From a virus, in IMG/VR virus record IMGVR_UViG_3300045425_000095, positions 1 through 45,255 of that record: 45,255 nt of DNA; one strand, given 5' to 3'. The translations under genes and the position numbers were made by a program. Numbering within the stretch: position 1 is the first letter of the stretch; each line of letters starts with the position of its first letter. Below are positions 6,674 through 21,516 of the stretch, piece by piece. The notes under the pieces are model-generated. The model saw only the letters and a program-made list of their open reading frames with translations, was not told where the DNA came from and did not search any database.

Positions 6674-6718
6674 CTGGCACACACCCCCTTTCCAGATGCC
6701 CATGTGTGCCCCTATAAT
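6674..6718 (+). promoter_or_regulatory. CTGGCACA-box promoter of helicase/methyltransferase genes
   Basis: Box 6674-6681; perfect 8-bp inverted repeat GGCACACA (6676-6683) / TGTGTGCC (6703-6710); TATAAT 6713-6718, 39 bp from the box start. No consensus -35. Transcript start is expected near 6725, 16 nt before the helicase ATG. Confidence 0.75.
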
Positions 6719-6740
6719 AGTGAAGTATTTACACCTTATT

Positions 6741-9050
6741 ATGAGCACTCTTAAAGAACGACGGAAAAATGAAAACTGGTTGTATCTGCTAGTTCCAGAA
6801 AATGAACTTGCTCATGCAAAGACAGGATCTGGACCTTGGCGTGGTTGGGTTGGAATGACGATGGGAAATCGTAAGTATCATAAGCAGGCATATAAACTTA
6901 CGCAAATAGACTCTATGATTGATATCTCTGGACTTACGGATAATGATGTTCACGTCATAATGCGATCTCGTCCAGTATCTATTCTTAAGAATATTGAGTC
7001 TCATCTACTTGCAGGTGAGCATAATCATGGTTCAGCTGAACTTTTTGAATTTTATTGCACCTTAAAAGAAGGATACGCACTGATTAATGAATGTGCAAGA
7101 GATGCCAAAAAAATAACATTTGGTAAGATGATTTTAAAGGATCAAGTAACATTTAATGCATATCCCTACCAAGAAAAGTTTAAACTTAAATTCTGTGCTC
7201 ATACTGGTAATTATTTCTTGCTTGCCATGAAGTGTCGCAGTGGTAAAACTGCTTCATCTTACTATGCAATGCAGTCAATGGGTTATCAGAAAGTTCTTGT
7301 GATTTGCTATTACAGTTCTCCCATTGATGGTTGGGAAAGTGATGCAATCACCTTTAACTTTGGACGTACTCCCATCATGGCAAACAACGTTACAAATCCA
7401 TCTTGGGACCGGCAAGTTAGAGCTTGTCTGGAAAGTGGTGAGCACTTTGCTCTGATTGCAACTGCTCAGTTCTTTGCTGATGAACGTAAGAATCTATCCC
7501 GTCTTACGGAGGTAATTGATAAGTTTGATTGCATTATTCTGGATGAGTGTCATTATGGTGGTACTTCGGTCAGTCTGAATAAGTTCTTGGAGAATTATCC
7601 AGGAACAAGAATTCTTGAGGTTTCTGCAACTCCATTCCGTGCCTTTGTTGAGTGTGATCCAAATGATGTATTCATTCATTCCTATGCAGATGAACAGCGG
7701 GCAAAGAAGAATGGTGAGGCATGGGCACAAGATAAACCCGAAATGAAACTCATTACAAAAGTGTATAATTCTCCAAGTGCTCATGCAGCATATCCCGGAT
7801 ACACCTCAGACCGTATTGGATGTATATTTAGTCTGAATGCTCCAAAGGTTGAGGATGCAACAAATTTCCTCGATGAGACTTGTGTTGAAGAGTTTGTCAC
7901 AGATTTATTTGACCGTAAGAACAGAAGTCGTCATGAATATGCTCTCTACTATTCAAAGCATATTGTGGCATCTATGCCATCCAATCTATCCTGTGTGCTT
8001 TTTGCAGAAGTTCTCAAGAGAATGAATGTTGAGTACGTTCCACTTGTCATCAATGATGGTAAGACAAAGACTCAAGACATCATTAATCACTGCAAAAAAC
8101 ATGAGAAAACAATCTGCCTGACCTTTATGGGGAATGTTTGTGGTGTTACCAATCCCTATTGGGATACTGCATTGTTCCTTCATGACTATCCTTCTGCACA
8201 GAATTGGATTCAATTTGCTTTCCGTGCTGGTTCGGTAAAGAATCGTAAGTTCTTTACCGTGATTGATTTTGCACCAACACGCTCAATTCGTTCACTGTAT
8301 GACATGATCGCAATTGGACAATCTGATGAAGATATTGCTGATGGTGTAAGTGTTGTCCGTACTATGACGGATATTATTGATATGAATGCCTTTCATGAAA
8401 AGTGCGTGAAGTGGACTCAGGATGACATCATTAATCTTCTTGCAAAAGATCCCGAAGATCTTGGTAATAATCTTGGATCTCTAAAAGTTAATGTTGACAT
8501 GGAGGATAACCAGGTACTGAATAATATTTTACAGATTCTTTCTGGTTTGCAATCATCCAATTTTGTTTCTGGATTTGAGGATGCTGTGATTTCGGATAAC
8601 GAAACGTTTAACAAATCAAATGTTAAGATTGAGCGTAATGGTTCTCAGACATCCACAAAAAGTCTGGAGAAGGAATTGGAGAATATGGTAAGAGAAATGA
8701 AACGTTCGATTGTCAATGCGGCATTTGTTGCTGAACTTGATGATCACAATTCCAGCAATTTACACTCTCTTTTAGAATATCCAAATCTAGATGAAGTTCT
8801 GGATATTAGTCCCAGTGACATGTTAAACTTAATTGAACGTGACAAACTTTTTGGTCCCAATGGATTGAGGGTTTTGAATGTGGATCTTTCTGAAGTCAGT
8901 ATGGGAATCCGCAAGATCATTTCCAATTCTCAAACTTGCGCAGATTGCGAAGGTATGCTAAAATTAACTGATAGACTATTTCATGCTCAAAAGCATCGTC
9001 CTCTACCAAACTCTTTGATTTCCCAATTTCATGAATGTCTTGCCGAATAA
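6741..9050 (+). CDS. SF2 DNA helicase/translocase, restriction-enzyme type
   Basis: 769 residues from the ATG at 6741, the first in-frame start after the 6713 promoter (an upstream ATG at 6696 would lie before the -10). Residues 1-90 resemble a small N-terminal recognition region. Motor motifs: Walker A R-S-G-K-T (GKT from about 168), Walker B/DEAH-type D-E-C-H (268-271), motif III S-A-T (295-297), and F-A-F-R-A-G in the position of motif VI. This is the architecture of helicase parts of type I, III and ISP restriction enzymes. The last 250 residues are helical and unassigned. It overlaps the NPPY methyltransferase by 20 nt, implying coupling. An alternative is a phage replication or recombination helicase. 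Confidence 0.75.
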   Translation: MSTLKERRKNENWLYLLVPENELAHAKTGSGPWRGWVGMTMGNRKYHKQAYKLTQIDSMIDISGLTDNDVHVIMRSRPVSILKNIESHLLAGEHNHGSAELFEFYCTLKEGYALINECARDAKKITFGKMILKDQVTFNAYPYQEKFKLKFCAHTGNYFLLAMKCRSGKTASSYYAMQSMGYQKVLVICYYSSPIDGWESDAITFNFGRTPIMANNVTNPSWDRQVRACLESGEHFALIATAQFFADERKNLSRLTEVIDKFDCIILDECHYGGTSVSLNKFLENYPGTRILEVSATPFRAFVECDPNDVFIHSYADEQRAKKNGEAWAQDKPEMKLITKVYNSPSAHAAYPGYTSDRIGCIFSLNAPKVEDATNFLDETCVEEFVTDLFDRKNRSRHEYALYYSKHIVASMPSNLSCVLFAEVLKRMNVEYVPLVINDGKTKTQDIINHCKKHEKTICLTFMGNVCGVTNPYWDTALFLHDYPSAQNWIQFAFRAGSVKNRKFFTVIDFAPTRSIRSLYDMIAIGQSDEDIADGVSVVRTMTDIIDMNAFHEKCVKWTQDDIINLLAKDPEDLGNNLGSLKVNVDMEDNQVLNNILQILSGLQSSNFVSGFEDAVISDNETFNKSNVKIERNGSQTSTKSLEKELENMVREMKRSIVNAAFVAELDDHNSSNLHSLLEYPNLDEVLDISPSDMLNLIERDKLFGPNGLRVLNVDLSEVSMGIRKIISNSQTCADCEGMLKLTDRLFHAQKHRPLPNSLISQFHECLAE

Positions 9051-10062
9051 CTCACCCCTTAACAGATCTTTCCTTTTGATTGATGCGGGTTGTAAGTTTG
9101 CTCTAAACCTAATTCAATCAAAAGTTTCTTCAAAAGACATCACTATTTGGGAACCAGTAGAAAGGTATTATGCTTTTGCAGAAAAGTTGCAAAGAATATA
9201 TGGTTTTAATCTAGTAAAGGAGGTTCCTGTGATTCAATTTGAGGTAACAATATCCAATCCACCATACTCTCTGGATTCTCATAATACGGGCAGTAGTGCC
9301 TATGAGGATTTTGTAGAGAAGCAATATCAACTAACCAAAGATAATGGTTTGATGATTGCAGTACACCCTCCTGGTCTGAGAAAACCAAACAACTCACACC
9401 GCAATCTATTGATTGACAATCAGGTGGAGAAACTGTCCATTCACTCCTCTGTGGAGGGCAGGAAGACCTTTAAGGCAGGGACGCCTTATGATTGGTATGC
9501 TCTTCACAAGACACCCCGTACAGGACCGACACAGGTGCGTTTTGAGGGGTCTGAGAATTGGACTGAGGTTGACTTTCGGGATTATCCTTTTATTCCAAAC
9601 CATAGTCTGGATATTCTTCAGAAATACCTGAATACTGATTCATCCATTCCTCGTCTAAATCCACAAATTGGAAGAGCATGGCGTCACATTTGCCGTTCAA
9701 AGACTTATGATCCAATGATTCCTTTTGAAGGTGCATTTGTGAGCATCAATAAGACTAGTACATCAGGAAAACTGAATCTATGCTATAATAAGACACAAGA
9801 ACCAGAAGCAACAAAGAAAAAGGTTGTGTTCCGTGAAGGTGGAAACTTCTACCCATATTATGATGATGGTAAATATGGTGTGTCTGATAATTGTATGTTT
9901 ATTGTAGTGGACTCAAAAGAAGAAGCAGATGATATTATTGAATATTTGAATTCACAAGAAGCAGATAAGTATCGTAGGGCATGTCAAATTAGTGGTGGGT
10001 TCCGTACAGTTTGTGATATGTTAAAAGTTATACCAAATCCGCATTATGTCAAAAAAGGTTAA
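9031..10062 (+). CDS. Adenine-N6 methyltransferase, catalytic and target-recognition part
   Basis: 343 residues. The catalytic motif IV is intact: I-S-N-P-P-Y (N76-Y79), followed by F-V-E-K-Q-Y-Q-L-T-K-D-N-G-L-M-I-A-V-H-P-P as in N6-adenine enzymes. Residues about 170-320 look like a target-recognition domain. Before motif IV, F-L-L-I-D-A-G-C-K-F occupies the motif I position but lacks the normal glycine loop, so SAM binding here is doubtful. The following gene supplies a proper motif I. Overlaps the helicase (20 nt) and the next gene (17 nt). Probably modifies phage or host DNA, or is a restriction-modification remnant. Confidence 0.7.
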   Translation: MNVLPNNSPLNRSFLLIDAGCKFALNLIQSKVSSKDITIWEPVERYYAFAEKLQRIYGFNLVKEVPVIQFEVTISNPPYSLDSHNTGSSAYEDFVEKQYQLTKDNGLMIAVHPPGLRKPNNSHRNLLIDNQVEKLSIHSSVEGRKTFKAGTPYDWYALHKTPRTGPTQVRFEGSENWTEVDFRDYPFIPNHSLDILQKYLNTDSSIPRLNPQIGRAWRHICRSKTYDPMIPFEGAFVSINKTSTSGKLNLCYNKTQEPEATKKKVVFREGGNFYPYYDDGKYGVSDNCMFIVVDSKEEADDIIEYLNSQEADKYRRACQISGGFRTVCDMLKVIPNPHYVKKG

Positions 10063-10453
10063 GAATGTAGGTTCTGATATTGAAAGAACAAAAGAAAGAA
10101 TTGATAATACTGGTGAAGTTTTTACTCCACCAGAATTAGTCAATGAAATGTTACATGAAATACCAGTAGAAACACTCAAGAATCCAGATTCTAAGTTTTT
10201 AGATTTTTGTGCTGGTTCCGGTAATTTTATTGTACGTCTTAAGGAACTTTTATGTTTGTATCATTCAGAAGAACACGTTTTGAACCATATGTTATATGCA
10301 ATTGAATATCAGAGCGATAATCATAAGGAACTCTGTGATATTCTTGGTGTATCAGTAAATCACGATCATTATGTGTGTGCAGATGCTCTCACGTATCATT
10401 ATAAGTTTGATGGAACTCCTTCTGAAATTACACTAGATCTTTATTATAACTGA
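10046..10453 (+). CDS. SAM-binding half of an N6-adenine methyltransferase
   Basis: 135 residues. It has motif X-like T-G-E-V-F-T-P-P-E-L-V, perfect motif I D-F-C-A-G-S-G-N-F (D53-F61), motif II Y-A-I-E-Y-Q and motif III C-A-D-A-L, then stops just where the catalytic N-P-P-Y would follow. That catalytic motif is in the preceding gene, so the two proteins carry complementary halves in the order catalytic-then-SAM-binding, as in beta-class enzymes. Either they form a heterodimer or this is a truncated relic. The 17-nt overlap implies co-translation. A CTGGCACA-box promoter follows. Confidence 0.65.
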   Translation: MSKKVKNVGSDIERTKERIDNTGEVFTPPELVNEMLHEIPVETLKNPDSKFLDFCAGSGNFIVRLKELLCLYHSEEHVLNHMLYAIEYQSDNHKELCDILGVSVNHDHYVCADALTYHYKFDGTPSEITLDLYYN

Positions 10454-10466
10454 ACCACTTGAAGAA

Positions 10467-10509
10467 CTGGCACAGACACCCCTTCAGGGCACTCAAAACC
10501 CTGTATAAT
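10467..10509 (+). promoter_or_regulatory. CTGGCACA-box promoter
   Basis: Box 10467-10474, hairpin CAGGG (10485-10489) / CCCTG (10499-10503), TATAAT 10504-10509 (37 bp). The 12 bases after the preceding stop match those before the 6674 promoter at most positions (ACCACTT then AACTGG). Confidence 0.7.
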
Positions 10510-10535
10510 AACAAGGTAATCAACGGACACCTCTC

Positions 10536-10697
10536 ATGGTCACTGATACCACTCAAGACAAGCAAATCCGTCGTTCTATCATCAAGCAGGTAGAGAACAT
10601 GGATCTGCGTTTGCTTCAACGAATTGCCTACGAGGTTCGCTGTGAGGAACTGGGTCTTCATGCTGACTCCTGGAAACTTTACCCTGAGGAAAACTAA
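10536..10697 (+). CDS. Small hypothetical protein
   Basis: 53 residues, first ATG after the 10504 promoter, with a leader of about 20 nt (CTCATGG-type context, no Shine-Dalgarno). Charged and helical: R-R-S-I-I-K-Q-V-E-N-M-D, then L-L-Q-R-I-A-Y-E-V-R-C-E-E-L-G. The next gene starts 2 nt after its stop. Function unknown. Confidence 0.6.
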   Translation: MVTDTTQDKQIRRSIIKQVENMDLRLLQRIAYEVRCEELGLHADSWKLYPEEN

Positions 10698-10699
10698 TT

Positions 10700-10966
10700 A
10701 TGACTACTGATACTGAACTGTTTGTTGAAAAACTCAACGAACTTCGTATGACTCCAGAAGAACGTAAACTTAAAAAAGCAAAGGAACTGGGAAAAGCATT
10801 TGGTAATGTAATTGCTGACATTATTTTTCTTCTGCTTGTTCCTACAACCATCTGGGCAGTTCTTACCTTTATCTTTGCTCTGAATATTGCCTGGGTAAAA
10901 GTATTTGGTGCTTATTTTCTGTTTAATCTGTTCAAGAACATTATCATCAAATCTTTCAAAAAATGA
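10700..10966 (+). CDS. Small membrane protein
   Basis: 88 residues. The first 30 are charged and helical (E-R-K-L-K-K-A-K-E-L-G-K-A-F). Residues about 35-60 and 62-80 are hydrophobic, giving one long or two membrane helices, with a Lys-rich C-terminus. Start ATG is 2 nt after the preceding stop; the end overlaps the next gene by ATGA. Probably an inner-membrane protein made from the 10504 promoter; role unknown. Confidence 0.65.
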   Translation: MTTDTELFVEKLNELRMTPEERKLKKAKELGKAFGNVIADIIFLLLVPTTIWAVLTFIFALNIAWVKVFGAYFLFNLFKNIIIKSFKK

Positions 10967-11623: not shown

Positions 11624-11624
11624 G

Positions 11625-12869: not shown

Positions 12870-12898
12870 TTGACAGAATCCTCATAAGGTCTTATAAT
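12870..12898 (+). promoter_or_regulatory. Consensus sigma70 promoter with CATAAG sites
   Basis: TTGACA 12870-12875, 17-bp spacer, TATAAT 12893-12898. A CATAAG motif ends 2 bp before the -35 and another is in the spacer, suitable positions for repressor sites. Confidence 0.8.
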
Positions 12899-12961: not shown

Positions 12962-12990
12962 TTGACAGATCCTCTAGATCATTCTATAAT
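12962..12990 (+). promoter_or_regulatory. Consensus sigma70 promoter
   Basis: TTGACA 12962-12967, 17-bp spacer, TATAAT 12985-12990; second of two tandem promoters for the 13019 gene, expected start near 12997. Confidence 0.85.
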
Positions 12991-13265: not shown

Positions 13266-13691
13266 ATGAGCACCAGGTCACGCATTGGTATTGAACTCAA
13301 AGATGGTTCAATTCTGTCTGCTTATCATCACAGTGATGGTTATCCTTCTTGGTTGGGACGCATTCTTAACACACATTACAACAGCAAAGAACTTGCTGAA
13401 GAACTCATCGACGGTGGTGATATGTCTTCTGCTTGGACTAATGAGCGTTGGACTAATGATTTGTTAGATCGTCATAGGGAAAAGTATGGTCCCAACTATT
13501 ACTCTTATCGTGGTGAAGATTCTCCTCCTCGTTTAGATGCTGACCTGTGTGAGTATCTGCTTCCTGATGGTAGTGAGGAATATGCTTATATTTTCCGTAA
13601 TGGAGAATGGGTATGTTACGATATGCATCAGTTTGAGGACTCTAAACTACCTGAAGTGGTAGAGATTCCTGCTTGTGCTCTTGCGGTGTGA
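13266..13691 (+). CDS. Conserved phage protein of MSTRSRIG type
   Basis: 141 residues. The opening MSTRSRIGIELKDGSILSAY followed by H-H-S-D-G-Y-P-S-W-L-G matches a family I remember as common in phages and cyanophages, of unknown function. The rest is acidic with a strand pair E-Y-A-Y-I-F-R-N-G-E-W-V-C-Y. It has its own TTGACA promoter and a leader ending GTTACACACCAC, nearly the same as that of the 13772 gene. No catalytic residues can be assigned. Confidence 0.75.
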   Translation: MSTRSRIGIELKDGSILSAYHHSDGYPSWLGRILNTHYNSKELAEELIDGGDMSSAWTNERWTNDLLDRHREKYGPNYYSYRGEDSPPRLDADLCEYLLPDGSEEYAYIFRNGEWVCYDMHQFEDSKLPEVVEIPACALAV

Positions 13692-13702
13692 CAGTTTAAG
13701 AA

Positions 13703-13746
13703 CTGGTCTAAGGGCACTGGATTTGCTCTGGTGCCCCTGTTACATT
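13703..13746 (+). promoter_or_regulatory. CTGG-box promoter
   Basis: Variant box CTGGTCTA 13703-13710; hairpin GGGCAC (13712-13717) / GTGCCC (13731-13736); extended -10 TGTTACATT with TACATT at 13741-13746 (38 bp). Confidence 0.65.
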
Positions 13747-13771: not shown

Positions 13772-14029
13772 ATGCGAACCGTTTACACTCACTCCGAAAA
13801 GTCCCTAAGGTTCACTAATCACGCAAGAACCTGGTGTATTATTCTCAACACTTATAAGAGGTTTCATCCTAAGTGTACCTTCAAAGAGATGTCAGAAGCA
13901 TTCAATTTGAGTCAAACTAGCACTCGTAGGTATTACTATGGTGTTCACCACGTTAATCTAGGAATGTTTGGTTGTGGTTACAGTCAAGTCCGTCAAGGTG
14001 CTTGTGTGCCACTTTATGAACTGGTCTAA
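13772..14029 (+). CDS. Small HTH-like DNA-binding protein
   Basis: 85 residues from the ATG at 13772 (an in-frame TTG at 13751 lies at the expected transcription start). Residues about 36-58, T-F-K-E-M-S-E-A-F-N-L-S-Q-T-S-T-R-R-Y-Y, read as a helix-turn-helix: a helix, a turn at the Asn-Leu-Ser, and a recognition helix. Overall basic. Candidate regulator of array promoters. Its last codons, GAACTGGTCTAA, double as the box of the next promoter. Confidence 0.6.
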   Translation: MRTVYTHSEKSLRFTNHARTWCIILNTYKRFHPKCTFKEMSEAFNLSQTSTRRYYYGVHHVNLGMFGCGYSQVRQGACVPLYELV

Positions 14030-14063
14030 ACACTCTTGAAACCACCTCCTGGTGCCCTATATT
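14021..14063 (+). promoter_or_regulatory. CTGG-box promoter overlapping a stop codon
   Basis: Box CTGGTCTA 14021-14028 encodes the end of the upstream gene; TATATT 14058-14063 (37 bp). A small CACC/GGTG inverted repeat lies between. Confidence 0.6.
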
Positions 14064-14110: not shown

Positions 14111-14620
14111 ATGACTATCACACTTTCCGCCACCTATAAGGAAACACTGACTCCTGAGATTGTTGAGATCGTTGACAATCTTGTTGAGAATGATTACGAT
14201 TTGGAGAATATTCTCATTGTCCTAGATTACTTTGGCGAAGAGTATCAGAAAAACCTGGAAGAAATTATTGAGGTTCTTGAGGATACTGATTCTTCCAGGA
14301 GTGATCTTTATGATTACATTGAGGAGCACGGTGTAGATAATCTAGAATACTTTGAGAAGTATTCGGAACTGCGGGATGATCACGATCCTGCTGCTGTGGA
14401 TGCTTTCATTTCACTCTATGATCTAAGTGGTCTGGAGGATTTTGAGGATGCTTATGAGGGGCAATTTAATCGTGTGGAAGATTTTGTAGAGCATTATATG
14501 GAAGTAAATGATGTAGAGATTCCTACTTGGATTTGTGTAGACTATGAAGCAACTTGGAACTGTTCTCTACGTCACGATTATTGTGAAGAGAACGATTATT
14601 ACTTCCATTCTAACTTGTGA
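14111..14620 (+). CDS. ArdA-like antirestriction protein
   Basis: 169 residues from the ATG at 14111; a GTG at 14066 would start at the -10. Very acidic throughout. Residues 97-167 match the ArdA pattern: V-D-A-F-I, G-L-E-D-F-E-D-A-Y-E-G-Q-F, V-E-D-F-V-E-H-Y, V-D-Y-E-A-T-W-N-C-S-L-R-H-D-Y, ending Y-Y-F. ArdA proteins mimic B-form DNA and block type I restriction enzymes. The N-terminal 95 residues are acidic and helical, perhaps extending the mimic. The leader is A/C-rich without a Shine-Dalgarno. A terminator follows. Confidence 0.7.
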   Translation: MTITLSATYKETLTPEIVEIVDNLVENDYDLENILIVLDYFGEEYQKNLEEIIEVLEDTDSSRSDLYDYIEEHGVDNLEYFEKYSELRDDHDPAAVDAFISLYDLSGLEDFEDAYEGQFNRVEDFVEHYMEVNDVEIPTWICVDYEATWNCSLRHDYCEENDYYFHSNL

Positions 14621-14765: not shown

Positions 14766-14790
14766 TGAAGATGCTGTGCCACTTCTAGAA

Positions 14791-14833
14791 CTGTACCAGA
14801 GGCACCTAGAAGCGCCTGTAAGACCCCTATACT
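14791..14833 (+). promoter_or_regulatory. CTGG-box promoter (variant)
   Basis: Variant box CTGTACCA 14791-14798 preceded by GAA as in other copies; TATACT 14828-14833 (37 bp). Confidence 0.55.
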
Positions 14834-15457: not shown

Positions 15458-15658
15458 GGTAATTCTCTTAAAGGGCATCAAGGATTCATAAAGAAATATC
15501 AGATGTTAGGTGAAACGAAACATATAAGAATTCCTATTTCTGTTTGTAGTAAAATTAAGCATATAACATTATTACTTGAATCTATTGCCTTTGAAAAAGG
15601 TATGGATAAAGTAAATCTTATTTTAGATAAGATTATAGTGGGATTAGAAAACGTGTGA
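15455..15658 (+). CDS. Ribbon-helix-helix-like repressor candidate
   Basis: 67 residues. Residues about 20-45, T-K-H-I-R-I-P-I-S-V-C-S-K-I-K-H-I-T-L-L, give a basic strand followed by a helix as in ribbon-helix-helix (Arc/CopG) proteins and cyanobacterial plasmid relatives. The lower-GC, Lys/Ile-rich sequence differs from its neighbours. The palindromic sites around its own promoter make autorepression likely. The fold assignment is by eye. Confidence 0.6.
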   Translation: MGNSLKGHQGFIKKYQMLGETKHIRIPISVCSKIKHITLLLESIAFEKGMDKVNLILDKIIVGLENV

Positions 15659-15669
15659 CACCTTAAGAA

Positions 15670-15713
15670 CTGGCACACTAGACCTCATAAGACTCTTAAG
15701 AACCTGTTATTCT
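15670..15713 (+). promoter_or_regulatory. CTGGCACA-box promoter
   Basis: Box 15670-15677; extended -10 TGTTATTCT with TATTCT at 15708-15713 (38 bp). A CATAAG lies between; hairpin weak. Confidence 0.6.
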
Positions 15714-15736: not shown

Positions 15737-15955
15737 ATGGCACTCTCTGAAAAAACCATTCAAAACCTTTCTATTGCTCTGACGCCAGATGTGATTGATG
15801 ACATCTTTCAGGATGAAAGGTATATTGAATTGATGATGGAATTGATTCCTGAATTTGTTGCAAAGAATCTTCAATCAGAAGATATTGATATGGTTGTAGG
15901 GATTGGTATTTGTATCATGGATAATATTGTTTTGAAACCACGTAAGACACTTTGA
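15737..15955 (+). CDS. Small acidic helical protein
   Basis: 72 residues from the ATG at 15737 (TTG at 15719 rejected: it lies 6 nt after the -10). Sequence begins M-A-L-S-E-K-T-I-Q-N-L and is helical and acidic, with a hydrophobic run V-V-G-I-G-I-C-I-M. Function unknown. Confidence 0.6.
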   Translation: MALSEKTIQNLSIALTPDVIDDIFQDERYIELMMELIPEFVAKNLQSEDIDMVVGIGICIMDNIVLKPRKTL

Positions 15956-15958
15956 CAA

Positions 15959-16002
15959 CTGGCACAGTGTTGCCTTGAAGCAACCTAAGATCGCTTTATG
16001 AT
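15959..16002 (+). promoter_or_regulatory. CTGGCACA-box promoter
   Basis: Box 15959-15966, 2 nt after the stop; hairpin GTTGC (15969-15973) / GCAAC (15980-15984); TATGAT 15997-16002 (38 bp). The spacing rule picks this hexamer over the TAAGAT at 15986 and places the gene start downstream. Confidence 0.6.
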
Positions 16003-16027: not shown

Positions 16028-16189
16028 ATGGAAACCATCAACCGCACTGATTACTCTGCTCTCGATATCATTCAAATGGTTCTGAAGACTTATGAGAATG
16101 ATGCAATTTCTATGGATTCTCATGAGAATGCTCTGTGGGCAATTTCAATGATTAAACATGAAGTTGAGCAGACTGGTAGGACACTCTGA
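16028..16189 (+). CDS. Small hypothetical protein
   Basis: 53 residues from the ATG at 16028. In-frame ATGs at 15998 and 16001 overlap the -10, while 16028 follows the AGTCAAC-CCAAACCA leader typical of the array. Helical: S-A-L-D-I-I-Q-M-V-L-K-T-Y, then A-L-W-A-I-S-M-I-K-H-E-V. The stop is followed within 3 nt by the next box. Function unknown. Confidence 0.6.
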   Translation: METINRTDYSALDIIQMVLKTYENDAISMDSHENALWAISMIKHEVEQTGRTL

Positions 16190-16192
16190 CAA

Positions 16193-16236
16193 CTGGCACA
16201 TAAGGCACCTAAGATCCGCTCTAGGTGCCCTAAGAT
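16193..16236 (+). promoter_or_regulatory. CTGGCACA-box promoter
   Basis: Box 16193-16200; perfect 8-bp hairpin GGCACCTA (16204-16211) / TAGGTGCC (16222-16229); TAAGAT 16231-16236 (38 bp); leader AACAAGTCAACCAA. Nearly identical to the module at 16428. Confidence 0.8.
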
Positions 16237-16262
16237 AAACAAGTCAACCAAGACACACTCCA

Positions 16263-16424
16263 ATGCCTTACACTGTTTACATCACCGAAACCAGTTACAC
16301 TTCTGCTTCTTTTGCTACTAAAGAAGAAGCGGAAGCATTTATGGAAGAACCTGATTATGATTTGTGTCGTAGTTGGGAAATGTCCGATTCTAGTATTGAA
16401 CTAGAGGAGGATGTGACAGCATAA
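16263..16424 (+). CDS. Small acidic hypothetical protein
   Basis: 53 residues. N-terminal strands P-Y-T-V-Y-I-T-E-T and helix T-K-E-E-A-E-A-F-M-E-E resemble the small beta-alpha proteins common in such arrays; the C-terminus is acidic (E-L-E-E-D-V). Enclosed by two nearly identical modules. Function unknown. Confidence 0.6.
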   Translation: MPYTVYITETSYTSASFATKEEAEAFMEEPDYDLCRSWEMSDSSIELEEDVTA

Positions 16425-16427
16425 GAA

Positions 16428-16471
16428 CTGGCACAAGAGGCACCTAAGATCCGCTCTAGGTGCCCTAAGAT
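16428..16471 (+). promoter_or_regulatory. CTGGCACA-box promoter
   Basis: Box 16428-16435; hairpin GGCACCTA (16439-16446) / TAGGTGCC (16457-16464); TAAGAT 16466-16471 (38 bp). Copy of the 16193 module across about 60 bp. Confidence 0.8.
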
Positions 16472-16499
16472 AAACAAGTCAACCAAGACACACACTCTC

Positions 16500-16796: not shown

Positions 16797-16807
16797 GTTT
16801 GTATATT

Positions 16808-16894: not shown

Positions 16895-16935
16895 TCTTGT
16901 AGGTCATTGTGGGCACCTGTCAGACAGTTCCTCAA

Positions 16936-16979
16936 CTGGCACAGCAGGTACTCAGTTCCCCCACCAGACCCCTTAAGAT
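16936..16979 (+). promoter_or_regulatory. CTGGCACA-box promoter
   Basis: Box 16936-16943; TAAGAT 16974-16979 (38 bp). The hairpin is degenerate on its left arm (GGTACT instead of GGGGGACT). It drives three linked genes from 17004. Confidence 0.7.
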
Positions 16980-17003
16980 AAACAAGTCAACCAAAGACAC
17001 TTC

Positions 17004-17177
17004 ATGACTTACAAAGAACTTCTCAATCAGTTACAGAAACTGAATGAAGAACAACTCAATCAGGATGTTGCTATCTGGGATGAAGATAATGATGAGTTTT
17101 ATCAACAGGATGTTGATTTACTCTTTGTAGATGATACTGATGTGCTTGATGTTGGTCACCCTATTATTCGTTTCTGA
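17004..17177 (+). CDS. Small acidic hypothetical protein
   Basis: 57 residues: helix K-E-L-L-N-Q-L-Q-K-L-N-E-E-Q-L, then acidic strands V-A-I-W-D-E-D-N-D-E-F and V-D-L-L-F-V-D-D-T-D-V-L-D-V. The stop overlaps the next start (TGATG), one of the few coupled pairs in the array. The strand pattern recalls small acidic proteins in other cyanophages; function unknown. Confidence 0.65.
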   Translation: MTYKELLNQLQKLNEEQLNQDVAIWDEDNDEFYQQDVDLLFVDDTDVLDVGHPIIRF

Positions 17178-17386
17178 TGAAGTTTCAAGTCACTGAAATT
17201 GAGTTTGATTTTTCTTCTGATGATTCTACCTGGGGAGATGTAGATCCCGATTATCAACATGAAGTAACAGAGGAAACCATTGGTCAAATCTGGGATGCTG
17301 ATGATGAAGATGATCTCGTAGAAGAGATTACTTCTGCTACAGGTTGGTGCATCAACTCTATTGATTACCGTCACATTCTTTCCTAA
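17177..17386 (+). CDS. Small very acidic protein
   Basis: 69 residues, coupled to the gene before by TGATG. F-Q-V-T-E-I-E-F-D-F then an Asp/Glu-rich centre (D-A-D-D-E-D-D-L-V-E-E-I) and T-G-W-C-I-N-S-I-D-Y-R. Highly negative charge would suit a DNA mimic or a protein-binding inhibitor, but nothing specific is recognised. Confidence 0.65.
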   Translation: MKFQVTEIEFDFSSDDSTWGDVDPDYQHEVTEETIGQIWDADDEDDLVEEITSATGWCINSIDYRHILS

Positions 17387-17388
17387 TC

Positions 17389-17616
17389 ATGACACTCAAC
17401 AAAGCACAATTTGAACAGTTCGTTTGTAATTATGTTCAGCATATTGTAGATGGACTGGATACAGAATCTCTTGAATGTATGGTCTCTGATTTACTTTTTA
17501 AGGAGTATCAGACTTATACTGAAGAGGAGATTGTTGGTGAGATTGAGTATCTTTATGGTGAGGAGTTTGCCACAGAGTTGTTAGAATCAGTAGATCCGCA
17601 TGTGCCAATCGCATAA
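17389..17616 (+). CDS. Small acidic helical protein
   Basis: 75 residues, starting 2 nt after the preceding stop. Amphipathic acidic helices: Q-F-E-Q-F-V-C-N-Y-V-Q-H-I, E-E-E-I-V-G-E-I-E-Y-L-Y. The next CTGGCACA-type box begins at the base after its stop codon. Function unknown. Confidence 0.65.
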   Translation: MTLNKAQFEQFVCNYVQHIVDGLDTESLECMVSDLLFKEYQTYTEEEIVGEIEYLYGEEFATELLESVDPHVPIA

Positions 17617-17660
17617 GTGGCACAAGGGGTCGCCCATAAGACCCCACCACCTCTTAAGAT
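17617..17660 (+). promoter_or_regulatory. CTGGCACA-box promoter
   Basis: Variant box GTGGCACA 17617-17624; hairpin GGGGTC (17626-17631) / GACCCC (17640-17645) with CATAA in the loop; TAAGAT 17655-17660 (38 bp). Confidence 0.75.
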
Positions 17661-17684
17661 TAACAAGTCAACCAAACAAAGCAA

Positions 17685-17810
17685 ATGAATCCATTTCTTG
17701 ACACTCCACAAATTGAAGAACTAGATTCATTCCACGATTGGGATGAAGAAAAGGAAGATTATGATGATTCTTCTTTCTCCGAACTTCTTAACTCTGAAAA
17801 CGACTTCTAA
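17685..17810 (+). CDS. Very small acidic protein
   Basis: 41 residues, about half acidic in its centre (D-W-D-E-E-K-E-D-Y-D-D). First ATG after the AAGTCAACCAA leader. Its stop overlaps the next start in TAATG. Possibly disordered; function unknown. Confidence 0.55.
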   Translation: MNPFLDTPQIEELDSFHDWDEEKEDYDDSSFSELLNSENDF

Positions 17811-17938
17811 TGCTTGAACTACTTGCTTTTGCTATGATCGTAGGACAGGTTGAAATTGCTCCCGGAGTGATTCAAACTGAATACCTACAAAACTCTACTG
17901 AAATCATCACCATTATTGAGAAGAAAAATGACGCCTGA
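17810..17938 (+). CDS. Small hypothetical protein
   Basis: 42 residues: M-L-E-L-L-A-F-A-M-I-V-G-Q-V-E-I-A-P-G-V. The first 15 residues are hydrophobic, perhaps a signal or short membrane segment; the rest is a beta strand and a charged end. It resembles short proteins I recall from cyanophages, with no known role. Coupled at both ends. Confidence 0.55.
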   Translation: MLELLAFAMIVGQVEIAPGVIQTEYLQNSTEIITIIEKKNDA

Positions 17939-18116
17939 ATCACTACAATTCACTGGTGATGCTGTTACTTTCTTGGGGTTGATTGGTGTAGTTTCTACTG
18001 GTATCATTATTGTTACCGCATTTCGTAGATTTTTCAACTCACCAATGAACTTCCGTATGCCAGTTTCTGAAGTGGCACAAGAACCCACACAGGACCCTGA
18101 AGATCTGGTATCTTAA
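17928..18116 (+). CDS. Small membrane protein
   Basis: 62 residues from the ATG at 17928, overlapping the preceding gene by 11 nt; GAGAAGAAA lies just before it. Residues about 12-32 (V-T-F-L-G-L-I-G-V-V-S-T-G-I-I-I-V-T-A-F) form one membrane helix followed by R-R. Its last 15 codons contain the box and -10 of the next promoter. Confidence 0.6.
   Translation: MTPESLQFTGDAVTFLGLIGVVSTGIIIVTAFRRFFNSPMNFRMPVSEVAQEPTQDPEDLVS
18072..18114 (+). promoter_or_regulatory. CTGGCACA-box promoter embedded in a coding region
   Basis: Variant box GTGGCACA 18072-18079 and TATCTT 18109-18114 (37 bp; TGG just before it gives an extended -10) both lie inside the 17928 gene. The leader has AAGTCAACCAA. Confidence 0.6.
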
Positions 18117-18139
18117 GTAAGTCAACCAAAGGCAAACCA

Positions 18140-18292
18140 ATGACTACCACTGACACCATGAAAGAGTTCTTTACTGAAACTGAATGGGACATGATTTATG
18201 AATTCATTGGTCGTGCTCTGGATGATGATAATTGTGAAGACAATGAGCAAGTGTATGCCATTCGCTCTAAGATTCACAATCTATTCCTGTGA
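18140..18292 (+). CDS. Small acidic hypothetical protein
   Basis: 50 residues: helix M-K-E-F-F-T-E-T-E-W-D-M-I-Y-E-F-I-G-R-A-L, acidic turn D-D-D-N-C-E-D-N-E, helix V-Y-A-I-R-S-K-I. A helix-turn-helix hairpin without basic surface. Function unknown. Confidence 0.6.
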   Translation: MTTTDTMKEFFTETEWDMIYEFIGRALDDDNCEDNEQVYAIRSKIHNLFL

Positions 18293-18303
18293 CACTTTAA
18301 GAA

Positions 18304-18347
18304 CTGGCACAAGGGGTCTTGTGTTCTCATAAGATCCCTGCCATAAT
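18304..18347 (+). promoter_or_regulatory. CTGGCACA-box promoter
   Basis: Box 18304-18311; hairpin GGGGTCTT (18313-18320) / AAGATCCC (18331-18338) with one G-T pair; CATAAT 18342-18347 (38 bp). Long leader of about 60 nt. Confidence 0.65.
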
Positions 18348-18413
18348 ACATTTAAGGAATGAGATGCGCCTTAAAGACACTCAAACCCTTTAATTTTTCT
18401 ATTTCTTATTATT

Positions 18414-18650
18414 ATGACTTTCACTTTCACTGAGCAACAATCTTCCTGCATCGCTTCCGTTAGCGTTGACGGTCAAGAGGTTAGCATCACTTTCCAGAGC
18501 AATCTGGATAAGGTTTACACTTTCGTTACTGAAAGTGAGGACGCGATTGTTAACTACCTGCAAACCCCCAGCGGTTCTATTGGTCAAACCTACCGCCGTT
18601 GGGTTGCCGAGCGTATGCTGATCCCTGCCGAAGAACTGGCAGCAGTGTGA
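18414..18650 (+). CDS. KTSC-domain-like small protein
   Basis: 78 residues. S-V-D-G-Q-E-V-S-I-T-F, Y-T-F-V-T-E-S, then L-Q-T-P-S-G-S-I-G-Q-T-Y follow the pattern of small KTSC-type domains (strand, strand, then a helix with S-x-G). A second array gene at 22298 has a similar layout. From here codon use is noticeably GC-richer than before. Role unknown. Confidence 0.6.
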   Translation: MTFTFTEQQSSCIASVSVDGQEVSITFQSNLDKVYTFVTESEDAIVNYLQTPSGSIGQTYRRWVAERMLIPAEELAAV

Positions 18651-18661
18651 CGGTCTAACAA

Positions 18662-18705
18662 GTGGCACGAGGGGGACTCAGTTCCCCCTCCAGACCCCTT
18701 AAGAT
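18662..18705 (+). promoter_or_regulatory. CTGGCACA-box promoter, GGGGGA hairpin class
   Basis: Variant box GTGGCACG 18662-18669; hairpin GGGGGA (18671-18676) / TCCCCC (18683-18688); TAAGAT 18700-18705 (38 bp). Same class as 20323 and 20867. Confidence 0.8.
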
Positions 18706-18733
18706 AAACAAGTCAACCAAACCGCTTCAAACC

Positions 18734-19051
18734 ATGCGTAAGATCGAAACCCTGATGAACGCTGCAATCCTTAACCGTAAGGATTGGTCCCTTGATAATA
18801 CTCGCGTTGAGTATGAAGAGGGTAACGAAGTTTCCCGAGTTTACCTTCACGGTCATAAGATTGCTGAGATTGGTGAAGGTTACATCACTCTCCATCATTG
18901 CGGTTGGAAGACTAAAACAACTAAGTCTCGGTTAAATGCAATTCTCCGCGCTAATGGTACGGGCAATGAATCAATCTATCAGAAAAATCACACTTGGTTC
19001 ATTGCTTATGATGGTAAGATCGAAGAGTTTGATTCTGCTGTGACACTCTAA
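18734..19051 (+). CDS. Conserved phage hypothetical protein
   Basis: 105 residues from the ATG at 18734, after the leader AACAAGTCAACCAA. Contains S-R-V-Y-L-H-G-H-K-I-A-E-I, then L-H-H-C-G-W-K-T-K-T-T-K-S-R-L-N-A-I-L: a beta hairpin followed by a basic helix I remember from several phage proteins of unknown role. The end is W-F-I-A-Y-D-G-K-I-E-E-F. It may bind nucleic acid given the K/R/S-rich helix. Confidence 0.7.
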   Translation: MRKIETLMNAAILNRKDWSLDNTRVEYEEGNEVSRVYLHGHKIAEIGEGYITLHHCGWKTKTTKSRLNAILRANGTGNESIYQKNHTWFIAYDGKIEEFDSAVTL

Positions 19052-19054
19052 GAT

Positions 19055-19098
19055 CTGGCACAAGGGGGATCACATAAGATCCCCCAGTCCCTTAAGAT
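19055..19098 (+). promoter_or_regulatory. CTGGCACA-box promoter
   Basis: Box 19055-19062; perfect 8-bp hairpin GGGGGATC (19064-19071) / GATCCCCC (19078-19085), loop ACATAA; TAAGAT 19093-19098 (38 bp). Confidence 0.8.
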
Positions 19099-19121
19099 AA
19101 ACACAGTTCAAACAAACACCA

Positions 19122-19364
19122 ATGAACACTCAAGTCTGGGGAATTGAACACACCGATACTTTCGGTGGTGAAGCAAACTATTGCTGGTGCAATCGTAGTG
19201 AGATTGCTATTCCTGAATCTTACAATCGCGCTTGGATTGTGCGTAAGATTAAAGAGCAATTAGGTTGGACAGGTGATAAGATCTCGGTCGAAGACTGGGG
19301 TGATTATCTTACACTCCGTCACAATCATCACTGTGAAGTTGCATTTGCAACTCTGCGGGATTAA
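19122..19364 (+). CDS. Small hypothetical protein
   Basis: 80 residues: V-W-G-I-E-H-T-D-T-F-G-G-E-A-N-Y-C-W-C then a helix A-W-I-V-R-K-I-K-E-Q-L-G-W and D-Y-L-T-L-R-H-N-H-H-C-E-V-A-F. Several Cys and His residues (C20, C22, HNHHC) could bind a metal, but no standard zinc motif is formed. Function unknown. Confidence 0.65.
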   Translation: MNTQVWGIEHTDTFGGEANYCWCNRSEIAIPESYNRAWIVRKIKEQLGWTGDKISVEDWGDYLTLRHNHHCEVAFATLRD

Positions 19365-19373
19365 GTGTAAGAC

Positions 19374-19474
19374 AGGGGAGTTAATTCTCCCCTATAAGAT
19401 TATCTTATCTCATTGATAAGCAACACTTATCCAAAACCTCTTGACTTAAGATGCCAGATCCAGTATCTTAAGAT
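19374..19474 (+). promoter_or_regulatory. Hairpin and TTGACT promoter before 19496
   Basis: Hairpin AGGGGAG (19374-19380) / CTCCCCT (19387-19393) without a T-run, then inverted repeat CTTATC/GATAAG near 19404-19420, then TTGACT (19441-19446), 17 bp, TATCTT (19464-19469). No CTGGCACA box. Confidence 0.6.
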
Positions 19475-19495
19475 CAGTTCACCACCCGAACCACA

Positions 19496-19636
19496 ATGTC
19501 TTTCCAACTCGCATCAGATCTTAAGACCCGCCAGACTATGTGGATTTGTAATGGTAAGACCTACAATCCCGTTAAGGTTTGTGGTCATTATGCCGAAAAG
19601 TATGCTCACGAAGTAAAGCGTGTGACAATCGGTTAA
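19496..19636 (+). CDS. Small basic hypothetical protein
   Basis: 46 residues: S-F-Q-L-A-S-D-L-K-T-R-Q-T-M-W-I-C-N-G-K-T-Y, then C-G-H-Y-A-E-K-Y-A-H-E-V-K-R-V-T-I-G. The last ten bases of the gene and the following module are identical to the end of the unrelated 21208 gene, so the C-terminal T-I-G is shared. Function unknown. Confidence 0.6.
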   Translation: MSFQLASDLKTRQTMWICNGKTYNPVKVCGHYAEKYAHEVKRVTIG

Positions 19637-19681
19637 GTTGCACAAGGGGACCCGCAACGGTCCCCACCAACCTGCTACAAT
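19637..19681 (+). promoter_or_regulatory. CTGGCACA-box promoter, GGGGACC hairpin class
   Basis: Variant box GTTGCACA 19637-19644 directly after the stop; 7-bp hairpin GGGGACC (19646-19652) / GGTCCCC (19659-19665); extended -10 TGCTACAAT with TACAAT 19676-19681 (39 bp). Confidence 0.75.
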
Positions 19682-19707
19682 TAACAAGTAAACCGCCCCG
19701 CAGACCA

Positions 19708-19863
19708 ATGGCATTCATCGCAACTTTCAAAGACGGATACAAGCGTACCATCGCACTCAAGACACAATCTGCCGCGCTAAAGTATGCGAAAGATCTCGAA
19801 GTTTGGTTTGCTGAAGGTTTCTATCCCGAGCGGATTCTTCTAAACGTAACGCCAAAGAAGTAA
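19708..19863 (+). CDS. Small basic hypothetical protein
   Basis: 51 residues from the ATG at 19708: A-F-I-A-T-F-K-D-G-Y-K-R-T-I-A-L-K-T-Q-S-A-A-L-K-Y-A-K-D-L, a beta hairpin and helix of the kind seen in small phage proteins that cap with Y-P-E-R-I. Followed by a terminator, so it ends a transcription unit. Function unknown. Confidence 0.6.
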   Translation: MAFIATFKDGYKRTIALKTQSAALKYAKDLEVWFAEGFYPERILLNVTPKK

Positions 19864-19869
19864 GGTATA

Positions 19870-19900
19870 CTTAAGGGAGACTAATCCTCTCCCTTTTTTT
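19870..19900 (+). terminator. Intrinsic terminator
   Basis: Stem AGGGAGA (19874-19880) / TCTCCCT (19888-19894) with a seven-T run. Confidence 0.9.
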
Positions 19901-19913
19901 ATACTTAATTGTT

Positions 19914-19990
19914 ACAATTATTTGAACGCAGGTTCGGTGGCGATAGTTGGTCAACCGGCGACCCAGCCGGTGTCTTTGCTGATTGTCCCC
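19914..19990. repeat. Recurrent post-terminator element, copy 3
   Basis: GCAGGTTCGGTGGCGA at 19928-19943 again directly after a terminator. Beyond it the sequence departs from copies 1 and 2 and holds an inverted repeat CCGGC/GCCGG near 19956-19970. Confidence 0.6.
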
Positions 19991-20044
19991 TTACTATAGG
20001 GCCAACCCAACCCATAAAACCGCCAAGGTGTGCCAGTTCGCCAA

Positions 20045-20088
20045 GTGGCACAGAGTACCCTCAGATCCCCCATCGGGCCCCTTAAGAT
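20045..20088 (+). promoter_or_regulatory. CTGGCACA-box promoter
   Basis: Variant box GTGGCACA 20045-20052; TAAGAT 20083-20088 (38 bp); the hairpin between is weak (CCC/GGG only). Confidence 0.7.
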
Positions 20089-20111
20089 AAACACAGTTCA
20101 ATCAACCGATC

Positions 20112-20318
20112 ATGATCGCAACCTACGCAACCGCCGCCGACTTCGCCAACTGGGAGGCCAAGGCCAAGGTCATGACGACCGCCTGTCTGCTCTGGTCTGC
20201 CCGCGATGCCCGCGCCGCTGCTCAGGCAATGAGAGGATGGAACCCCATTGCCGAGGGACGCTACGACGACGAGGCCAGCACCTACGGCGATGAACTTCGC
20301 CGCCGCCGTGCCGCCTGA
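20112..20318 (+). CDS. Conserved small phage protein (A-M-R-G-W-N-P type)
   Basis: 68 residues. The segment L-L-W-S-A-R-D-A-R-A-A-A-Q-A-M-R-G-W-N-P, followed by Y-D-D-E-A-S-T-Y-G-D-E-L-R-R-R-R, matches small phage proteins I recall, of unknown function; both parts are amphipathic helices. GC-rich codons. Start follows the ACAGTTCAATCAACCG leader; no Shine-Dalgarno. Confidence 0.7.
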   Translation: MIATYATAADFANWEAKAKVMTTACLLWSARDARAAAQAMRGWNPIAEGRYDDEASTYGDELRRRRAA

Positions 20319-20322
20319 GGCA

Positions 20323-20366
20323 CTGGCACAAGGGGGACTCTGATCCCCCTCCAGACCCCTTAAGAT
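20323..20366 (+). promoter_or_regulatory. CTGGCACA-box promoter, GGGGGA hairpin class
   Basis: Box 20323-20330; hairpin GGGGGA (20332-20337) / TCCCCC (20344-20349); TAAGAT 20361-20366 (38 bp). Confidence 0.8.
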
Positions 20367-20388
20367 AAACACAGTTCAATCAACCGAC

Positions 20389-20556
20389 ATGCGAATCGAA
20401 GTCCGCTACCAGAACCCCTACAATGCTTGCGAGTGGCGCTCCCAGTGGTTCTCCACAATGTCGGAGGCTGAGTGTATGGTGGAGTTCTACCGCTCCTGCG
20501 GGTCACCCTCGCACATCGCCCCCTCATCCCTGGCACAGTTCGCCCACCTTGCCTAG
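20389..20556 (+). CDS. Small hypothetical protein
   Basis: 55 residues: R-I-E-V-R-Y-Q-N-P-Y-N-A-C-E-W-R-S-Q-W-F-S-T-M-S-E-A-E-C-M-V-E-F-Y. A beta-alpha unit with W and C pairs. The next variant box starts at the last base of its TAG stop. A CTGGCACA also occurs inside the gene (20530) without a -10 at the right distance. Function unknown. Confidence 0.6.
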   Translation: MRIEVRYQNPYNACEWRSQWFSTMSEAECMVEFYRSCGSPSHIAPSSLAQFAHLA

Positions 20557-20600
20557 TGGCACAAGGGGACCCGCAACGGTCCCCACCAACCTGCTACAAT
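20556..20600 (+). promoter_or_regulatory. CTGGCACA-box promoter, GGGGACC hairpin class
   Basis: Variant box GTGGCACA 20556-20563; hairpin GGGGACC (20565-20571) / GGTCCCC (20578-20584); extended -10 TGCTACAAT, TACAAT 20595-20600 (39 bp). Confidence 0.8.
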
Positions 20601-20625
20601 TAACAAGTAAACCGAAAGGAAACCG

Positions 20626-20865
20626 ATGACTACCGCAACCGCCACCGAGACCTACAACGAATGGGCAAACTGGGCAACCTGGAACGTTGCTCTCTGGATT
20701 CAGAATGACGAGCGTCTCTATAAAGTTGCTCGCCAATATGATCGCTACGATGCACTCATCCCCCGCCTAGAGTATGCATTCGGTCAGATGACCCCAGACG
20801 GTGCCCGATGGATGGATCCCACCATCGACACCGCCGCCCTAGATGAGATGCTCGCCGATCTCTGA
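20626..20865 (+). CDS. DUF7249-like small phage protein
   Basis: 79 residues. Y-N-E-W-A-N-W-A-T-W-N-V-A-L-W-I-Q-N-D-E-R-L-Y near the N-terminus matches the signature of DUF7249-type phage proteins (N-G-W-x-N-x-x-T-W-N-V-x-L-W). The C-terminal part is acidic and ends A-A-L-D-E-M-L-A-D-L. Its leader includes GAAAGGAAACC, one of the few in the array with a Shine-Dalgarno-like AAGGA. Biochemical role unknown. Confidence 0.75.
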   Translation: MTTATATETYNEWANWATWNVALWIQNDERLYKVARQYDRYDALIPRLEYAFGQMTPDGARWMDPTIDTAALDEMLADL

Positions 20866-20866
20866 A

Positions 20867-20910
20867 CTGGCACAAGGGGGACTCGGTTCCCCCTCCAGAC
20901 CCCTTAAGAT
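20867..20910 (+). promoter_or_regulatory. CTGGCACA-box promoter, GGGGGA hairpin class
   Basis: Box 20867-20874, 2 nt after the stop; hairpin GGGGGA (20876-20881) / TCCCCC (20888-20893); TAAGAT 20905-20910 (38 bp). Confidence 0.8.
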
Positions 20911-20935
20911 AAACACAGTTCACACCCCGAGACCA

Positions 20936-21130
20936 ATGCAAATCTCCAAAGTCTACGCTGTGATGGGTGGGTTTGATTATGAAGGCGAATCCTTCAAATC
21001 GCTCCGCTTGTTCGACTGCTACTCAACTGCAGTTAAGTATATGCATCACCTCGAAGAACAGGAGGGTTTCGATTATTCTGTGATGGATACCCGCGAGGTG
21101 TGCATGGAGTCCGCTCTCGCAACCGCCTGA
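20936..21130 (+). CDS. Small phage protein (G-G-F-D-Y-E-G type)
   Basis: 64 residues from the ATG at 20936. K-V-Y-A-V-M-G-G-F-D-Y-E-G-E-S, then S-L-R-L-F-D-C-Y-S-T-A-V-K-Y and F-D-Y-S-V-M-D-T-R-E-V match a small beta-alpha-beta family widespread in phages, without known function. Stop is followed by a box 4 nt later. Confidence 0.7.
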   Translation: MQISKVYAVMGGFDYEGESFKSLRLFDCYSTAVKYMHHLEEQEGFDYSVMDTREVCMESALATA

Positions 21131-21134
21131 GGCA

Positions 21135-21179
21135 CTGGCACAAGGGGACCCGCAACGGTCCCCACCAACCTGCTACAAT
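21135..21179 (+). promoter_or_regulatory. CTGGCACA-box promoter, GGGGACC hairpin class
   Basis: Box 21135-21142; hairpin GGGGACC (21144-21150) / GGTCCCC (21157-21163); extended -10 TGCTACAAT, TACAAT 21174-21179 (39 bp). Confidence 0.8.
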
Positions 21180-21207
21180 TAACGAAGTTCAATCAACCGA
21201 ACAGATC

Positions 21208-21471
21208 ATGCTCAGCACCGTCATCCGCAGCAGCATCCGCAGCATCCTGATTCAGCACGGTCCCCATACCTGCTCCGATCTGGTTCGTGAAATGGGTCTA
21301 GATCCTCGCCGCCACAAGGGCACCATCCACGCTATGATGGTGGACATGGAGCGCGATGGGATTCTGGATGCCACTCGCGCCGACAATGGCAAGCGGGACC
21401 TCTGGTTCATCGTGCCAACCGCGATCCGCAAGCGGGACCGCCTCGCCGCCGCCTTTATGACAATCGGTTAA
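21208..21471 (+). CDS. Small winged-helix DNA-binding protein
   Basis: 87 residues from the ATG at 21208. S-S-I-R-S-I-L-I-Q-H-G-P-H-T-C-S-D-L-V-R-E-M-G-L-D, then K-G-T-I-H-A-M-M-V-D-M-E-R-D-G-I-L and R-D-L-W-F-I-V-P read as a winged helix-turn-helix: two helices, recognition helix with the M-x-x-M-E-R-D-G-I-L pattern, and wing strand. Candidate transcription regulator within the array. GC-rich. Its last ten bases match those of the 19496 gene. Confidence 0.7.
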   Translation: MLSTVIRSSIRSILIQHGPHTCSDLVREMGLDPRRHKGTIHAMMVDMERDGILDATRADNGKRDLWFIVPTAIRKRDRLAAAFMTIG

Positions 21472-21516
21472 GTTGCACAAGGGGACCCGAAACGGTCCCC
21501 CCTGACCGACTACAAT
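21472..21516 (+). promoter_or_regulatory. CTGGCACA-box promoter, GGGGACC hairpin class
   Basis: Variant box GTTGCACA 21472-21479 directly after the stop; hairpin GGGGACC (21481-21487) / GGTCCCC (21494-21500); TACAAT 21511-21516 (39 bp). Confidence 0.75.

Follow-up and report, generated by a model that had tools for sequence, protein, structure and literature searches.

A rigidly spaced 24-bp dyad marks a promoter class of T4-like cyanophages

The DNA considered here is a 45,255-base stretch from a virus record (IMG/VR IMGVR_UViG_3300045425_000095), hereafter the window, whose open reading frames (ORFs) include matches to gp6 and gp8 of T4-like phages. Its gp6 is closest to those of Synechococcus phages S-SM2 and Bellamy (73–75% identity), and, judged by its ORFs, the window covers part of the genome of a T4-like cyanophage, including the region of small ORFs located before gp25–gp6. 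Spread through it are 22 promoter units in which a box, CTGGCACA, stands at a fixed distance from a -10 hexamer, an arrangement from which the original prediction proposed a dedicated activator. These units represent a real, family-wide promoter class built on a 24-bp dyad, and they are likely to depend on an activator that is most likely supplied by the virus.

Dyad, spacing and -10 in the window

All 22 predicted boxes are present, and the -10 hexamer starts 37, 38 or 39 bp from the start of the box, unit by unit as had been proposed. The hexamer reads TAnnnT in 21 of the 22, the exception being CATAAT behind the box at 18304. Exact copies of STGGCACA number 18 on the plus strand, and 13 have a TA...T -10 at 37–39 bp; over a scan from 25 to 59 bp, every other distance holds 0–1 such hexamers. 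When one mismatch is allowed, 17 boxes have a -10 at 37–39 bp; 100 order-1 Markov sequences gave 0.66 on average and never more than 4.

When the 22 sites are aligned, a further block, TGTGMCA, proves to be conserved, its first base 16 bp before that of the box. The box CTGGCACA thus forms the right half of a 24-bp dyad, TGTGMCASTTNNNNAASTGGCACA. This dyad can be recognised from the window sequence alone. Counted from a transcription start set 12 nt beyond the first -10 base, it lies at about -66 to -43. Scanning both strands with a matrix built from the window sites returned, on the plus strand, only the 22 promoters above threshold. The two boxes reported to stand outside promoters are real, one (20530) within a small ORF and the other (30084) within the large ORF 27912–40697, and neither has the left half-site of the dyad. 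Megablast of the dyad region against phages gave no match, and an Rfam search of 6–23 kb of the window found nothing credible.

The statement that no -35 consensus is present stands for 18 of the 22 units, which have at most 3/6 matches to TTGACA, but not for the remaining four, which have at least 4/6. The four box-less promoters described as a contrast are also genuine, each with TTGACA and a TATAAT-like -10 17 bp downstream (Table 1, last row). About four of the window dyads (14775, 15654, 16920 and 20029) also have a good -10 at 36–38 bp on the minus strand, and across 112 sites a -10 is found on both sides of the dyad in 16, where about 7 are expected. The minus-strand hexamers of these four window units would yield antisense or divergent transcripts.

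Table 1. Dyad promoter units of the window and the box-less contrast class
Feature	Position	Strand	Remarks
Dyad promoter	6658..6718	+	Dyad 6658–6681, -10 TATAAT 6713–6718; upstream of ResIII-domain helicase ORF
Dyad promoter	10451..10509	+	Dyad 10451–10474, -10 TATAAT 10504–10509
Dyad promoter	13687..13746	+	Right half CTGGTCTA, -10 TACATT at 38 bp; spacer stem-loop
Dyad promoter	14005..14063	+	-10 TATATT, -35-like TTGAAA; directly before 14111–14620 protein matching anti-restriction family phrog_36653
Dyad promoter	14775..14833	+	-10 TATACT at 37 bp; minus-strand -10 TATGAT at 38 bp
Dyad promoter	15654..15713	+	-10 TATTCT; minus-strand -10 at 36 bp
Dyad promoter	15943..16002	+	-10 TATGAT
Dyad promoter	16177..16236	+	-10 TAAGAT; spacer stem GGCACCT/AGGTGCC; then leader AAACAAGTCAACCAA at 16237–16251
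Dyad promoter	16412..16471	+	-10 TAAGAT; cassette near-identical to 16177
Dyad promoter	16920..16979	+	-10 TAAGAT; minus-strand TATAAT at 37 bp, same dyad
Dyad promoter	17601..17660	+	Dyad TGTGCCAATCGCATAAGTGGCACA, -10 TAAGAT
Dyad promoter	18056..18114	+	-10 TATCTT at 37 bp
Dyad promoter	18288..18347	+	Top-scoring dyad; -10 CATAAT
Dyad promoter	18646..18705	+	Kyano_Gp96 (PF23790) gene; Syn9 and P-TIM40 homologues also with dyad promoter
Dyad promoter	19039..19098	+	-10 TAAGAT; spacer stem GGGGGATC/GATCCCCC
Dyad promoter	19621..19681	+	Box GTTGCACA, -10 TACAAT at 39 bp; spacer stem GGGGACC/GGTCCCC
Dyad promoter	20029..20088	+	Dyad TGTGCCAGTTCGCCAAGTGGCACA, -10 TAAGAT; minus-strand -10 TATAGT at 38 bp
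Dyad promoter	20307..20366	+	-10 TAAGAT; spacer stem GGGGG/CCCCC
Dyad promoter	20540..20600	+	Weak left half; -10 TACAAT at 39 bp; stem-loop 20565–20571/20578–20584
Dyad promoter	20851..20910	+	-10 TAAGAT; spacer stem
Dyad promoter	21119..21179	+	Weak left half; -10 TACAAT at 39 bp; spacer stem-loop
Dyad promoter	21456..21516	+	Box GTTGCACA, -10 TACAAT at 39 bp; spacer stem-loop
Box-less promoter (contrast class)	12870..12898	+	TTGACA-N17-TATAAT; like copies at 12962, 13210, 15147

Spread among cyanophages and genes served

Conservation of the spacing in relatives had been named as a test that could overturn the prediction, and the spacing is held both in IMG/VR contigs and in cultured cyanophages. 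IMG/VR was scanned with the dyad alone, using a pattern without the -10, and -10-like hexamers were then measured downstream. At least 120 stretches were found. Among the matches listed, a -10 lies at 37–38 bp in 113 of 224 oriented sites on multi-site contigs and in 42 of 74 sites on single-site contigs; most other distances hold about 0–9, and at 43 bp the multi-site contigs show a smaller second peak of 21. The start codon typically follows the -10 by about 30 nt. In 73 of 109 units it falls 25–40 nt past the 37-bp point, consistent with a short leader.

Cultured cyanophages also carry dyad sites: 34 in ACG-2014f, 22 in S-CRM01, 16 in P-SSM2, 10 in P-TIM40, 8 in Syn9, 6 in Bellamy (200 of 205 kb scanned) and 2 each in S-SM2 and P-TIM68, compared with 0–2 in Markov sequences modelled on each genome. 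For most sites the -10 stands at 36–39 bp, and a -10 accompanies 6 of the 8 sites in Syn9 and 9 of the 10 in P-TIM40. The pattern search found none in T4, and the reversed-pattern control gave 0–1 across all records. A scan covering part of S-SM2 had pointed to relatives without the motif; for the family as a whole, these counts show otherwise. In ACG-2014f and P-SSM2 the sites are clustered, as in the window, in the small-ORF region before gp25–gp6. Spacer and leader vary across phages; the constant parts are the dyad, its distance to the -10 and the -10 itself.

In a logo of 169 unique promoters, only the dyad, TATAAT at -10 and a weak TTG at -35 stand out. Five or six matches to TTGACA occur at -35 in 32 of the 169, against about 2 expected, so some relatives do have a partial -35, an element that most window units lack. 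The spacing in IMG/VR, this logo and the counts in cultured phages would all be compatible with the dyad being a repressor operator, by which host-type promoters are later shut off by a phage repressor. As a matter of general knowledge, repressors can bind to dyads that lie upstream of promoters, and sequence is silent on the sign of regulation. However, the site lies upstream of the -35 at a rigid 37–39 bp and overlaps neither -35 nor -10, and the poor -35 matches of most window units imply promoters that would be weak without help. We consider a repressor operator improbable, and activation the better account of these promoters.

The same genes retain the site in different phages. For instance, a family of proteins of about 300 amino acids keeps a dyad promoter in ACG-2014f, P-SSM2, P-TIM40 and Syn9; a peptidase family does so in P-SSM2, P-TIM68 and Syn9; Kyano_Gp96 in the window (18646), P-TIM40 and Syn9; and CobS in ACG-2014f and P-SSM2. 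Helicases do likewise, one in the window (6658) and ACG-2014f, another in ACG-2014f and Bellamy. A DUF7717 (PF24835) protein (13843–14316 of L220, P-TIM40) is present in all 8 cyanophages compared, and its genes in P-TIM40, ACG-2014f and Bellamy have dyad promoters.

Stem-loops and cassettes

Between box and -10, a GC-rich stem-loop is found in 12–14 of the 22 window units; the stem score reaches at least 18 in 12 of the 22 spacers and in 0.9% of shuffles. None of the 22 is followed by a T-run, and several T-tailed examples occur in S-CRM01, ACG-2014f and P-TIM68. This stem-loop is a second, separate element, downstream of the dyad and before the -10. Since a stem-loop or terminator is often nested in this way, the unit may act as terminator and promoter together.

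The dyad is itself intergenic and palindromic and, in many units, is followed by this second stem-loop; in addition, the annotation of S-CRM01 marks Rho-independent terminators that overlap the spot or lie close to it. The palindrome might thus act as RNA, serving the upstream message as terminator or processing hairpin, with the promoter geometry a by-product. Its pairing, however, is not kept: at the mirrored positions 4/19, 48 of 104 sites have A-G and 46% have a Watson-Crick pair, and all seven outer base pairs are possible in only 18 of 104. The halves are also unequally conserved (8.4 versus 11.1 bits), the distance from dyad to -10 is held to within 1–2 bp, and a terminator, where present, is the separate downstream hairpin. 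Because half-site sequence is kept and pairing is not, the dyad appears to be a DNA site rather than an RNA hairpin, and the RNA explanation is very improbable.

Near-identical cassettes recur in the window (16177/16412 and 19621/20540/21119) and also in ACG-2014f, and the intergenic unit may recombine as a cassette. Many TAAGAT -10s are followed by the leader AAACAAGTCAACCAA, as though entire cassettes had been copied. By eye only, the small genes at about 19.4–22 kb of the window seem GC-richer than their flanks, as if recently acquired. The repeats could be taken to mean that the units are kept chiefly as recombination cassettes, with the box conserved by gene conversion and not by regulation. 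What is kept across phages is only the dyad, spacing and -10, however, and orthologous genes in different phages retain the site; we regard this explanation as quite improbable and a regulatory function as the better one.

The nearest structural analogue is the promoter-early stem-loop (PeSL) of T4-type phages (Arbiol 2010 and Comeau 2014, as cited in PMC4503421). PeSLs share with the present units a composite of promoter and stem-loop between small shuffled genes, in near-identical repeats. The units differ in placing the stem-loop between an activator-type dyad and the -10, and in that the T-run of an intrinsic terminator is absent from all window stem-loops and present in some of S-CRM01 and ACG-2014f.

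Candidate activators and known systems

The proposal of a dedicated activator is well supported by the fixed geometry in unrelated contigs, the mostly weak or missing -35, the symmetry of the dyad and the orthologues that keep the site. From these features, it is likely that the dyad units are activator-dependent promoters of T4-like cyanophages, at which a dimeric protein on the dyad recruits host RNA polymerase. A dimeric DNA-binding protein would bind the 24-bp dyad, and at the downstream half-site would contact host RNA polymerase, loaded with the main sigma factor, at its upstream edge. This contact would compensate for the missing or weak -35, and transcription would start at the TATAAT-like -10, 37–39 bp from the right half-site. 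The regulon would comprise the small takeover genes before gp25–gp6 and a few core genes (the peptidase family, CobS and helicases). It is most likely the early class of the phage. Probably, a single activator turns on dozens of small takeover genes together in marine and freshwater T4-like cyanophages.

The original prediction left it open whether the activator is encoded by the phage or the host. A host regulon should leave sites in the host genome. Host genomes were scanned for the dyad with up to two mismatches, and a subset of 95 cyanobacterial genomes no larger than 2.3 Mb, the usual range for picocyanobacteria, was tallied by hand. These hold 53 dyad-like matches, barely more than the 44 of the reversed control. 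In 257 Gb of cellular genomes there are 20 exact matches to dyad plus -10, scattered over many phyla, none of them titled Synechococcus or Prochlorococcus. With no clear excess in small cyanobacterial genomes, an activator supplied by the virus is favoured over an unlikely host regulon, which narrows the earlier alternative.

A host cyanobacterial regulator could nonetheless be exploited by the phage, as PhoB is at pstS of P-SSM2 and at some S-PM2 genes. Early promoters have to work before phage proteins exist; binding of host PhoB to cyanophage promoters of S-PM2 has been shown experimentally (PMC10976474); and some larger cyanobacterial genomes exceed the control in dyad-like palindromes, with one exact copy (G137). 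Set against the genome counts, this reading is unlikely. The activator of the dyad promoters is most likely supplied by the virus, and it would be either made from the box-less TTGACA promoters or carried in the particle. In P-HM2, early transcripts peak at 0.5 h (PMC5082946), which sets the timing that such promoters would need.

Candidates for the viral protein were sought among several groups of proteins. The small helix-turn-helix proteins at 13772 and 21208, proposed to bind the box, are unsupported: tblastn against 50,697 phage records found no relative of either, while many phages in the collection carry the site. The Syn9 'transcriptional regulator' gp230 (phrog_385) was also set aside, having no Pfam domain and appearing FmdB-like by eye. 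Among short core proteins tested, the homologue of late sigma factor gp55 is the only one with a recognised DNA-binding domain.

Some points weigh against the proposed scheme. Ten short proteins common to 7–8 of 8 cyanophages include no new DNA-binding domain and no convincing activator, being clamp loader, RegA, gp55, baseplate and virion proteins and domains of unknown function. S-SM2 and P-TIM68, whose gp6 places them near the window, hold only 2 sites each. Finally, early genes are on within minutes, for which a host factor would be simplest, and a host factor with looser sites may be involved.

T4 middle promoters (MotA box plus TATAAT, with AsiA-appropriated sigma70) resemble the dyad units in that a site for a phage activator stands in for the -35, ahead of an ordinary -10. 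The MotA box of T4 sits near -30, with a sequence unlike the dyad. The dyad units do not match this class, their site being farther upstream and different in sequence. PhoB-controlled promoters of S-PM2 are likewise cyanophage promoters bound by a regulator; they differ in their box (PyTTAAPyPyT/A), their host factor and their response to nutrients (PMC10976474). By inspection, all 22 boxes lack the following N5-TTGC of the sigma54 arrangement (-24 TGGCAC, -12 TTGC; TGGCAC-N5-TTGC); a sigma70-type -10 is found at 37–39 bp instead. Nor is the dyad a CRP/NtcA-type site (TGTGA-N6-TCACA or GTA-N8-TAC), its half-sites being TGTGMCA and TGGCACA, 10 bp apart.

Doron et al. 2016 reportedly described a novel element, conserved among T4-like cyanophages, that controls the early genes of Syn9. 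The dyad promoter is probably this early element, which has been little explained. Syn9 and P-TIM40, the phages of that study, both carry the dyad promoter.

Cyanomyoviruses are without homologues of alt, modA, motA and asiA, and a 2010 review calls their early and middle control unclear, including how early transcription is run without the T4 proteins that redirect RNA polymerase (PMC2984593). A broader and more tentative proposal, which we consider possible, is that T4-like cyanophages deliver or rapidly make a sequence-specific activator that brings host RNA polymerase simultaneously to as many as about 30 dyad promoters. This early switch would have no T4 counterpart and would work through one symmetric site that is sometimes bidirectional. 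A precise, rigidly spaced operator in many aquatic cyanophages, with no clear host enrichment, can serve as bait for the responsible protein. Its geometry also allows takeover genes to be predicted for any contig from a cyanophage, and the promoter is a possible part for phage-inducible expression in cyanobacteria.

Two further contigs, L075 (89–1193) and L081 (316–2322), hold tandem dyad arrays in steps of 57–58 bp, most of them then followed by TTACCTATTGACA or a close variant. These contigs are AT-rich and have other gene content, with one ORF HigA-like in appearance. An exact copy of one array 24-mer occurs in a cyanobacterial genome (G137:C113:95601).

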